Positions 17,519-21,020 of a stretch of 36,970 nt of DNA are shown here, piece after piece. Position 1 is the first letter of the stretch. The number at the start of each line of letters is the position of its first letter. The stretch comes from a virus, in IMG/VR virus record IMGVR_UViG_3300031754_000013, positions 1-36,970 of that record; one strand, given 5' to 3'. Made by a program: the position numbers and the translations under genes. The notes beneath the pieces were generated by a model that was not told the DNA's origin, searched no databases, and saw only the letters and a list, made by a program, of their open reading frames with translations.

Positions 17519-17547
17519 TATAATTCTTACATAGGTCATGGTACTAT
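17519..17547 (+). promoter_or_regulatory. Rightward promoter elements for the endonuclease VII-like gene
   Basis: A perfect TATAAT lies at 17519-17524 and an extended -10-like TGGTACTAT at 17539-17547, the latter five bases before the ATG at 17553. Either could start the only rightward transcript here. If the second is used, the mRNA is leaderless. I cannot tell which is active. Confidence 0.45.
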
Positions 17548-17552
17548 GCGCC

Positions 17553-17816
17553 ATGCTCTATGCCCTTCTTGGGAATCCTAAAACGCGCCGAGTTGTATAC
17601 GGCCATCTCTTCAAGGAGCAAAAAGGGAAGTGTGCTATTTGCGGCACTGAACGCGCTATTGATGCTCCAAAATGGATGAAACTACTAATAGACCATGACC
17701 ATGAAACCGATGAAGTTCGTGGTTTATTGTGCCAATCCTGTAACATCTTAGTGGGGCGTTTAGAGCACCGATTCGTAGAAAAAGCTTTGGATTATTTAGC
17801 TAAACATTCACGGTAA
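17553..17816 (+). CDS. Recombination endonuclease VII-like protein
   Basis: From the ATG at 17553 the product is 87 residues. It has CAICGTER (Cys27, Cys30), the histidine-aspartate core LLIDHDHETDEVRGLLCQSC (about 44-63) and NILVGRLE, the zinc-bound HNH-type fold of T4 gp49 family nucleases that resolve branched DNA. The C-terminal dimerisation part of gp49 is absent, so this is the minimal core. It stands alone on the plus strand beside the main leftward promoter. It may process replication junctions before packaging, or be a mobile nuclease. An ATG at 17538 would add five residues. Confidence 0.82.
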   Translation: MLYALLGNPKTRRVVYGHLFKEQKGKCAICGTERAIDAPKWMKLLIDHDHETDEVRGLLCQSCNILVGRLEHRFVEKALDYLAKHSR

Positions 17817-17895: not shown

Positions 17896-18372
17896 TTAGC
17901 GCCCTAAGACCTCGATGCTCGTTACAGGATGGATTTCTAAATGCCCATGCTGCGCGTCCAGTACCCAAACGCCTGTGACTTTGACATGTGCGCCGATTGG
18001 CGGGAGTTTGATTTGCTGCGAGAAGCCCTTGCGGAAGGCTACAGCGTCAGGTTGGGTGCTCTTGTAGATGTAGATTGGCTCGATGACAAGATTTGAATCT
18101 TGCTCAGACCTATTCTCAGCGTTGAGGTATTGCTCCTGCCCAGCATCGAGCTTTAGCCAGCAATGGCCGTCGCCATCCTTCTCGTGACGACAGCCATCAC
18201 CAGTTTTCCCATGGGAAGCGTCTTGCCAAATTCCAGTTACGCTCACGCACGCCTTCTGGACGTGTAGTCGCTGGGCGTGATAGATGTGCTTGGCCAGCAA
18301 CGGGTCACAGGTCTGACTATGGCAGATGCTTGGTAACGCCAGCAATGCCAGACTTAACAGCAGTTTCCGCAC
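17896..18372 (-). CDS. Secreted protein with an 'EIHPV' motif
   Basis: From a GTG at 18372 with AAGGAG seven bases upstream, the 158-residue product has a signal peptide RKLLLSLALLALPSICHSQ, then CDP, CVSVTGIWQDASHGKTGDGC, HEKDGDGHCWLKLD, LVIEPI and VKVTGVWVLDAQHGHLEIHP ending VTSIEVLGR. Uncharacterised exported bacterial proteins share this layout (CxHEKDGDxHCWL, VTGxxVxDxxHGxxEIHPV) and I suspect an OB-like fold. A chromosomal-type exported protein at the end of a phage late operon suggests host-derived cargo or an envelope role. Function unknown. Confidence 0.65.
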   Translation of the reverse strand: MRKLLLSLALLALPSICHSQTCDPLLAKHIYHAQRLHVQKACVSVTGIWQDASHGKTGDGCRHEKDGDGHCWLKLDAGQEQYLNAENRSEQDSNLVIEPIYIYKSTQPDAVAFRKGFSQQIKLPPIGAHVKVTGVWVLDAQHGHLEIHPVTSIEVLGR

Positions 18373-18487
18373 TTTGCGTCTCCTTAACAAACAAACCCTT
18401 TATTTTGCGCCCCACGGCCGGCGTGAATGCGCCCACCACAAAGCCGATGCACAGCCCGACTACCTGTCCTGCTAGATAATGGCCCAT
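18317..18487 (-). CDS. 56-residue small membrane protein
   Basis: Translating from the ATG at 18487 gives MGHYLAGQVVGLCIGFVVGA, one hydrophobic helix (about 5-22) and a short tail with KIKGLFVKETQSAETAVKSG, ending KHLP. A perfect AGGAGG lies five bases before the ATG. It overlaps the secreted-protein gene by 56 bases in another frame. In the lysis region it may be a small holin or accessory membrane peptide. Confidence 0.6.
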   Translation of the reverse strand: MGHYLAGQVVGLCIGFVVGAFTPAVGRKIKGLFVKETQSAETAVKSGIAGVTKHLP

Positions 18488-18496
18488 CGTTGCCTC

Positions 18497-18766
18497 CTAT
18501 TGATTTAGCTGGAATGTTTGAAAATTCTGTACGTTTCCTTGATACGATTGGGAACTAACGCTGCCATAAATATTGCCCTGGTAGTATGTCCATTGCGGCC
18601 AGATGGCTGGCTGAAATACCGGTCTAGGGTAGTAAGGATATACAGCCCAAGGATAGAAATAAGGAAGAGCCACATATTTCCCACACTTTCTACAACAGCC
18701 GCAATGGTCGCAGCGTTCGCATTTGTCACAAGCTCCGCAGTTTTTGCAATGGTCGGTATGTTCCAT
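18497..18766 (-). CDS. Period-3 cysteine protein with aromatic/Gln-rich tail
   Basis: The 89-residue protein has Cys at residues 7, 10, 13, 16, 19, 22, 25 and 28, exactly every third position, plus Cys24 (HCKNCGACDKCERCDHCGCC). A Tyr/Pro/Trp-rich stretch follows (PYFYPWAVYPYYPRP ... WPQWTYY), then a Gln/Asn/Ser tail with QGNIYGS and SYQGNVQNF. AGGAGGGATA precedes the ATG, so it is well translated. The Cys array could wrap a metal cluster (metallothionein- or ferredoxin-like) or form disulfides; the tail looks prone to phase separation or adhesion. No family recognised. Confidence 0.65.
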   Translation of the reverse strand: MEHTDHCKNCGACDKCERCDHCGCCRKCGKYVALPYFYPWAVYPYYPRPVFQPAIWPQWTYYQGNIYGSVSSQSYQGNVQNFQTFQLNQ

Positions 18767-18778
18767 TATCCCTCCTAG

Positions 18779-19426
18779 TCACTTACAATGAGAAGTTGCG
18801 CACACTGCTACCGCTCCGCCTATTGCGCCAATTCCGATGTATTTCAACGCCTTCACGGTCCTGTGCCAAGTCGTGCCGCCTTTTGCTTCCACGGCCAGCG
18901 CAGTGTTCTCTTTCTTGAGCGAGTCTATCTGTAGCTGGGCGAGGTTGGCTTGTGCTTGCCTGTCTGCGGCATCGGCGGTCACTTTGCTGAGATTTAGTTT
19001 GCAAGTCTCGCAATCTTGGATGTAGGATTTCGCTTGTGGGAAATCGACTTGCGGTACTTGCACTACGGATTGTGGGTTCGGGTTTGCTGCTGTGGGCGCT
19101 GGAGTCACAACTGTCAAAGGCTGTTTCAGCCCCATCAGTGTTGATACCAGCTGCGCTATTTGGGCCGGCGTTGCTGCTGCTTGAAATTGTCCTTGCAAAG
19201 ATTTCAAGGATGCTTGATAAGTTGCATCCCGCGCGTCCATCTGCTTCGCCAAATCGCTGACTTGCTGGGCGTAGGTGGCTTGGTCTTTCTTTGCGGTATC
19301 CACTACTGCTTGCGCTACAGCCTGTTGGCGCACCTTGTCATCATGCTCTTTTAGCGCAACTACGCCAATTAGGAGCGCGACAGCGATAGCCCCGACTTCC
19401 AGTCTCGTTTTAAGTAGGGGTAGCAT
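18779..19426 (-). CDS. Membrane-anchored coiled-coil protein, inner-spanin candidate
   Basis: The 215-residue protein has an N-terminal TM helix (VGAIAVALLIGVVAL, about 11-25), a long Ala/Gln-rich coiled coil to about residue 90, a Pro-rich hinge (VTPAPTAANPNP), a CETC pair, a second coiled coil and a hydrophobic C-terminal helix (IGIGAIGGAVAVCA). Anchor plus coiled coil next to an endolysin is spanin-like (Rz), but the second hydrophobic helix is not typical. Overlaps the upstream membrane gene by 17 bases. Confidence 0.5.
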   Translation of the reverse strand: MLPLLKTRLEVGAIAVALLIGVVALKEHDDKVRQQAVAQAVVDTAKKDQATYAQQVSDLAKQMDARDATYQASLKSLQGQFQAAATPAQIAQLVSTLMGLKQPLTVVTPAPTAANPNPQSVVQVPQVDFPQAKSYIQDCETCKLNLSKVTADAADRQAQANLAQLQIDSLKKENTALAVEAKGGTTWHRTVKALKYIGIGAIGGAVAVCATSHCK

Positions 19427-20295: not shown

Positions 20296-20529
20296 TCACT
20301 TTCCTGTTTTAAGATGCTGAACGTAGGCCGGATTAGCGTAACGAACTGCGAAATGCAGCCAGAGCCACGACAATCCAATCATCGTATAATACCACGGAAC
20401 GTACCTCGTAACCGCCTGTGTCAGCATCGGCGTGCGTGAATTGTGGTCGAGGCCGGCCCACAGTTCATAGCCAAGGAAGAAGCCAAACCAAATGGCCCAC
20501 GGAAGGCATCGAGTGAACAACCAATTCAT
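20296..20529 (-). CDS. Two-TM small membrane protein, holin candidate
   Basis: From the ATG at 20529, which overlaps the endolysin stop (ATGA), the 77-residue product begins MNWLFTRCLPWAIWFGFFLG (TM1). It continues through a polar loop to WYYTMIGLSWLWLHFAV (TM2) and a Lys-containing tail. Size, two helices and direct coupling to the endolysin fit a class II-type holin. Confidence 0.6.
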   Translation of the reverse strand: MNWLFTRCLPWAIWFGFFLGYELWAGLDHNSRTPMLTQAVTRYVPWYYTMIGLSWLWLHFAVRYANPAYVQHLKTGK

Positions 20530-21020
20530 GCTTCCTCCAGCGTATCGTCTGAGCTGACTGGCGGGAATAGGTACGGCACATAGTCGCACTTGATGTATGG
20601 CTCGCTATTGTGCGTCGCCCCCTCTAGCACTGAACGCACTCCCGGCTTGAGCCTGTTATAGCTCACATGTACGATGCTGGAGCCGTTCGCGCCATGCTCA
20701 AGGATGAGCTGGTGGAATGGTAGCATGGAGTTTTCGCGCATGAAGTCAAAGATAGTCCTAGCGGGAATCAGGCTAGAGTAGAAGTCCGCCGCGCAATAGT
20801 TCTCAGTCGCTACATGCTCGCTATTGGGTTGGCCGTGAGCCTCCACGTTGGCTTCTGGCGAGCGATAGCCGGACGTAATGATGAGCGGGCTATCGACGTA
20901 GGCACGGACAGGCTCAAGGATGGTCTTGGCCAGTTCCGCGAAGGTAGGGATACATTGAGCCGGGACAGGTTCGTTCTTCTCGAACTCGTCAAGAACGAAA
21001 TTCTGGCTGAGTTGGGTCAT
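20526..21020 (-). CDS. Endolysin, peptidase M15 family
   Basis: The 164-residue protein has the zinc peptidase M15 signature: ITSGYRSPEANVEAHG (about 48-63), SEHVATENYCAADF (67-80; His69 and Asp79 as ligands) and IVHVSYN (His118). It opens with LSQNFVLDEFEKNE, the usual start of this group. It would cut peptidoglycan peptide cross-links (D-Ala-D-Ala or L-Ala-D-Glu type) to release virions. There is no signal peptide, so it depends on a holin. GGAG precedes the ATG; 5' end overlaps the upstream membrane gene. Confidence 0.88.
   Translation of the reverse strand: MTQLSQNFVLDEFEKNEPVPAQCIPTFAELAKTILEPVRAYVDSPLIITSGYRSPEANVEAHGQPNSEHVATENYCAADFYSSLIPARTIFDFMRENSMLPFHQLILEHGANGSSIVHVSYNRLKPGVRSVLEGATHNSEPYIKCDYVPYLFPPVSSDDTLEEA

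Follow-up and report, generated by a model that had tools for sequence, protein, structure and literature searches.

Zinc ribbons are usually built on knuckles that read CPxCG[K/R], and we know of no zinc ribbon in which two knuckles lie one residue apart. One report describes the Rad50 hook as a homodimer mediated by Zn (PMC5093744), and another reports prion-like domains in phages in general (PMC5694896).

The protein described here, 89 residues long (MEHTDHCKNCGACDKCERCDHCGCCRKCGKYVALPYFYPWAVYPYYPRPVFQPAIWPQWTYYQGNIYGSVSSQSYQGNVQNFQTFQLNQ), is encoded on the minus strand at positions 18497–18766 of a 36,970-nucleotide stretch of DNA from an IMG/VR virus record (the window), with the ATG at 18766–18764 and the stop codon at 18499–18497; the original prediction named no strand, and on the plus strand the same segment meets an early stop. 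Four nucleotides before the ATG is an AGGAGG ribosome-binding site (18776–18771, minus strand). Upstream, across a gap of 12 bp, lies a gene for a 215-residue, weakly Rz-like protein with an N-terminal hydrophobic segment (18779–19426, minus strand; weak match to phrog_4297, E = 0.045), and about 1.8 kb upstream is an M15-type endolysin gene marking the lysis region (20526–21020, minus strand; phrog_894, E = 2e-21; PF08291, E = 8e-10). The original prediction's placing of the gene in the lysis region thus agrees with the local gene order, and the high expression that it draws from the ribosome site is a putative one. Downstream is a gene with a ribosome-binding site of its own (18317–18487, minus strand), whose 56-residue product is rich in Gly and contains a single hydrophobic segment. 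An endonuclease VII-like ORF (17538–17816, plus strand; phrog_2914, E = 1e-21) lies on the strand opposite the late genes.

Eight of the nine cysteines are spaced at an exact period of three (residues 7, 10, 13, 16, 19, 22, 25 and 28), and the ninth is C24. Residues 7–18 make up a first four-Cys unit (CKNCGACDKCER; 18713–18748, minus strand), which lacks the knuckle Pro and reads CxxCGAC, and residues 19–30 a second (CDHCGCCRKCGK; 18677–18712, minus strand). By composition, the remainder divides into a P/Y/W/F block (residues 31–62; 18581–18676, minus strand) and an uncharged N/Q/S/G-rich tail (residues 63–89; 18500–18580, minus strand) in which QGN occurs twice and for which AlphaFold2 gives no confident fold. 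Translation of the ORF bears out the cysteine count and period first noted, together with the aromatic/Pro block and the low-charge Q/N tail with its repeated QGN; the prion- or adhesive-like character then ascribed to the tail fits the composition, the property itself being a reading of that composition. No signal peptide or transmembrane segment is evident on inspection by eye.

Simple chance models, all picked post hoc with the sequence already seen, do not account for the period-3 cysteines, the P/Y/W block or the uncharged N/Q tail. CxxCxxCxxC matches the protein at five overlapping positions against 0.24 expected from shuffles (0 of 100 shuffles reach five), and at the window's Cys frequency at least nine cysteines within 30 residues have P ~1e-11. 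Eight of nine cysteines falling in one residue class have P ~2e-5, and only two K/R/D/E among the 61 residues after C28 have P ~3e-5. Charged residues make up about 7% of the tails across the family described below, against 22% of other window proteins.

Searches of Pfam, PHROGs, PDB and INPHARED with the 89-residue protein returned no significant match, nor did searches of Pfam, PHROGs and PDB with the tested relatives; against isolated phages the tested relatives also gave none, a result limited by BLAST low-complexity masking. A clear match to a known zinc-ribbon or metallothionein family, which would have told against the original prediction, did not appear: the nearest PDB profile similarity, to the archaeal Nop10 zinc ribbon, is not significant (E = 0.04). 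No description of phage proteins with such a Cys knuckle and tail was found in the literature. Peptide-seed searches with the 89-residue protein recovered no relative, probably owing to overly strict seeds and to the low complexity of the sequence. Relatives were recovered from IMG/VR with degenerate Cys patterns, first L277, then L355 (the same as L424), L390, L564 and about 32 four-Cys proteins; the search for period-3 cysteines in phages proposed at the outset was productive in this form, whereas a plain seven-Cys scan gave mostly repeat or antisense noise.

Pattern scans of IMG/VR yield at least about 38 non-redundant small ORFs with the same plan, C-P-H-C-G-[YR]-C-P-[HT]-C-G-[RKQ] followed by a P/Y/W-rich and then an N/Q/S/T-rich stretch, most of them preceded by an RBS-like site. 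The consensus is drawn from 36 members with the exact core. The search patterns dictate its His at position 3, but the pattern that recovered most members left the Pro, Tyr/Arg and final R/Q/K positions free. Pro follows the first Cys in 28 of the 36 and the third in 27, and R/Q/K follows the last CG in 34. Invariant in the alignment are C19, C22, G23, C25, C28, G29 and P35, as well as H21, which is biased by the search pattern; P39 is conserved in at least 90%. Beyond these positions the tails differ strongly in length and composition. The 89-residue protein carries the core CxHCGxCxxCG[R/K/Q] at residues 19–30 (His being demanded by the search patterns), followed directly by a P/Y/W-rich stretch and a low-charge N/Q/S/T/G tail, and is a small ORF in a late neighbourhood, although some relatives have no identified late neighbour. 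It is 67% identical to L277 over 33 residues, 64% to L564 over 33 and 50% to L355 over 60. L355 and L424, one a 44-kb and the other a 125-kb contig, have 3.4 kb in common at 99.94% and come from different metagenomes. This small family is missing from PHROGs, Pfam and INPHARED and is seen here in uncultivated phages only, so that the earlier statement that the protein is unlike any phage protein that could be named holds for the searched catalogues but not for the relatives in uncultivated phages.

The core Cys run numbers four in 32 members, eight in five (the 89-residue protein, L355=L424, L277, L564 and L390) and five in one (L563). In the 89-residue protein it is the second unit that corresponds, in the alignment, to the CPHCGxCPHCGR core found in every relative; the first is an additional unit ahead of it, present in the eight-Cys subfamily only. 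As C24 occurs elsewhere only in L355/L424, the conserved core comprises the eight period-3 cysteines. Since the extra unit aligns before the common core and the runs are mostly of four or eight, the alignment indicates that the period-3 run arose from a 12-residue unit, CxxCGxCxxCx[RK], duplicated in tandem, two copies taking the place of the open-ended (Cys-x-x)n ribbon first envisaged.

Long C-x-x runs are also seen in other phage ORFs (L085, 348–998, minus strand; L094, 4030–9687, plus strand; L054, 3803–4486, plus strand; L263; L297), with up to 47 Cys per ORF, and several of these ORFs have a similar-looking N-terminal segment, W-x-D-E/Q-N-x-W ... L-x-N/Y-C. Those in L085, L094, L054 and L263 resemble the 89-residue protein in their runs but have many more CxxC triplets, other N-terminal segments and no P/Y/W tail, and no homology to the family was seen. 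Near-identical ORFs in L212, L215 and L249 (MKMNQFQQELQALSLNDYRS...) differ from one another in how many CGG units their Cys/Gly tract contains, and a 10.7-kb contig (L043, 5281–9078, plus strand) carries two adjacent long ORFs rich in CxxC, with 87 and 70 Cys.

The combination of a CPHCGxCPxCG head with a P/Y/W tail was found only in viral records within the data searched here. A complete scan located the head in 36 viral contigs, 35 of them with a P/Y/W-rich tail, making the combination rare in a scanned set of 2.9 million contigs, and three phylum searches, which sampled about 1,186 bacterial genomes, gave no match to the head. Among the matches listed for the looser CxHCGxCxxCG, 34 of the 97 viral ones have a P/Y/W tail after the core, against 2 of the 106 bacterial ones.

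Most pairs of relatives are near saturation at synonymous sites (pS ~0.6–1.0) with pN of ~0.3–0.4, in a set of pairs that was preselected at >50% identity, which biases the pN/pS ratio, and that excludes the 89-residue protein. Synonymous sites are thus near saturation in a conserved protein, which shows that its shared residues do not stem from DNA shared recently. The pairs L345/L433 and L364/L388 are more closely related and tell less. For the 89-residue protein itself, coding is supported by its protein-level match to L277, L564 and L355.

Among 85 neighbour proteins of the family, ten match the terminase large subunit in PHROGs, several the portal and others major head proteins. Terminase directly adjoins the family gene in L348, L563, L369, L332 and L363, portal in L277 and L364, and a PHROG endolysin in L337 and L335; in L567 the family ORF overlaps endolysin-like and holin-like ORFs, as judged by reading only. 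No packaging or lysis gene was identified around the family gene in L397, L379 and L403. Genes for terminase, portal, coat, endolysin or holin make up most of the identifiable neighbours, so the product is likely to be an accessory protein of the late phase; the varying position of the gene points to no single partner. In its behaviour the family gene is thus a late, accessory one, the timing being judged from position. Head-module kin (L002–L010; portal 61–77%, coat up to 96%), several of which are fragments, have no copy of the family as far as the contigs reach, and nothing in them resembles the lysis region of the window. Directly 3′ of the family gene in three lineages (the window, 18317–18487; L369, 1769–1909; L563, 11279–11395) is a small gene for a Gly-rich product with a basic tail and a single hydrophobic segment; next after it in L369, two genes beyond the family gene, is a PHROG holin.

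AlphaFold2, run on 22 family members, gives low confidence everywhere (mean pLDDT 53.9) and no secondary structure other than short bridges, those in the Cys region being single ones, so the knuckle geometry draws no support from prediction. In a crude torsion model limited to backbone, CB and SG atoms, other side chains being omitted, cysteines i, i+3, i+6 and i+9 of one chain form a clash-free tetrahedral S4 site at S–S distances of both the Zn type (3.8 Å) and the Fe–S type (6.4 Å), and the geometry therefore permits either.

Core cysteines numbering four or eight, with one exception at five, suggest four-ligand metal sites, and metal binding by the knuckles is quite probable; the family consensus lends support to the metal-cluster-type Cys head on an aromatic, Q/N-rich, low-charge tail that had been proposed. 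The CPxCG[R/K] knuckle, from what is known of such families, favours zinc, which we consider somewhat likelier than Fe–S. The N terminus of the 89-residue protein would comprise two tandem four-Cys knuckles (CxxCGxCxxC), where most relatives would have one, each probably folding round one metal ion, most likely Zn2+. This would be the sole ordered part, and the aromatic/Pro and N/Q/S/T tail would be disordered, its contacts weak and multivalent and its partners most likely proteins of the virion or of assembly made in the same phase. That the protein is a small accessory protein expressed late in the cytosol is likely; the whole chain, in which a metal knuckle with a disordered, sticky tail acts late in infection, is a tentative reading, somewhat short of an even chance, and a role in assembly or the virion is possible, if a shade more doubtful again. 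Different uncultivated phages carry the family next to genes for packaging, head and lysis functions. If confirmed, the loop-less knuckle would be a very short metal site present in one or two copies, and with its low-charge aromatic tail the protein would allow the part played by a disordered accessory protein late in phage infection to be tested.

Each four-Cys unit might instead hold a [4Fe-4S] cluster, making the 89-residue protein a di-cluster redox or regulatory protein. The 6.4 Å spacing is feasible in the torsion model, unit 1 resembles ferredoxin loops, and bacterial CxHCGxCxxCG matches are often, by reading, long ferredoxin-type Fe–S proteins; CxxCxxCxxxCP is nonetheless absent from the 89-residue protein, most members have CPxCG followed by R/Q/K as in a typical Zn site, and Pfam gives no ferredoxin match, which leaves this alternative unlikely. 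Less likely again is a zinc-linked oligomer in which CxxC pairs of different chains share Zn, cross-linking the sticky tails into polymers or condensates, for example in packaging or lysis. Every unit consists of two CxxC pairs, the Rad50 hook provides a precedent and the tail is low in charge, aromatic and Q/N-rich, but the torsion model allows coordination within one chain and the tails vary strongly among relatives. Its more elaborate form, a zinc-controlled condensate or virion/lysis scaffold in which loop-less double knuckles link chains into multimers and Q/N tails condense, is a speculation to which we give slightly less weight.

A metallothionein-like metal or redox buffer protecting late infection would suit nine cysteines in 89 residues and the extra C24 of two lineages. 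The only CxC (C22–C24) and CC (C24–C25) of the protein both use this non-conserved C24, however, the core of most relatives has just four Cys, the long aromatic tail would be unexpected and Pfam gives no match, so the idea is improbable. Marginally poorer is the alternative raised in the original prediction, a disulfide-crosslinked polymer or adhesive on, or released with, the virion: many cysteines together with Tyr, Trp and Pro would oxidise extracellularly, but the claim finds no support in a protein with no evident secretion signal, in core runs of four or eight cysteines with the single exception, in the conserved Gly, Pro and R/K/Q around them, which fit metal knuckles, or in relatives scattered over packaging, head and lysis loci. 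A spurious ORF of chance composition, to which an overlapping antisense ORF (18518–18778, plus strand) and the lack of any database match for the 89-residue protein alone might point, is strongly disfavoured by the homologues in other phages (L277, L564, L355), the near-saturated synonymous sites, the RBS-like sites and the viral bias of the P/Y/W tail among the matches listed.

The metal-knuckle reading is closest to the zinc ribbons and knuckles of the archaeal Nop10 N terminus, Pfam Zn_Ribbon_1 and DUF7577, which share with the family CPxCG followed by R/K/Q and then a Pro-rich stretch. Their knuckles are parted by a loop (about eight or more residues, as in Nop10), whereas one residue parts those of every family member, and all family scores against Pfam zinc-ribbon profiles are far below cut-off; two CPxCG-type knuckles occur in most four-Cys relatives, while the 89-residue protein has CxxCG without Pro. 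With [4Fe-4S] ferredoxin loops the family shares CxxCGxC spacing, as in the CxxCGAC of unit 1, but not CxxxCP. The likeness to the Rad50 hook, by sequence, lies in CxxC pairs as Zn ligands. Each chain of the hook contributes a single pair, at the tip of its coiled coil, and the family has two or four at the end of a predicted-disordered chain. Metallothioneins are likewise small, Cys-rich and of low complexity, but the family differs in its strict four-Cys units and long aromatic tail, with no conserved CxC, and the 89-residue protein has neither conserved CxC/CC clusters nor a curated profile match. On these comparisons the family appears zinc-knuckle-like, yet distinct from the zinc-ribbon, ferredoxin and metallothionein families.
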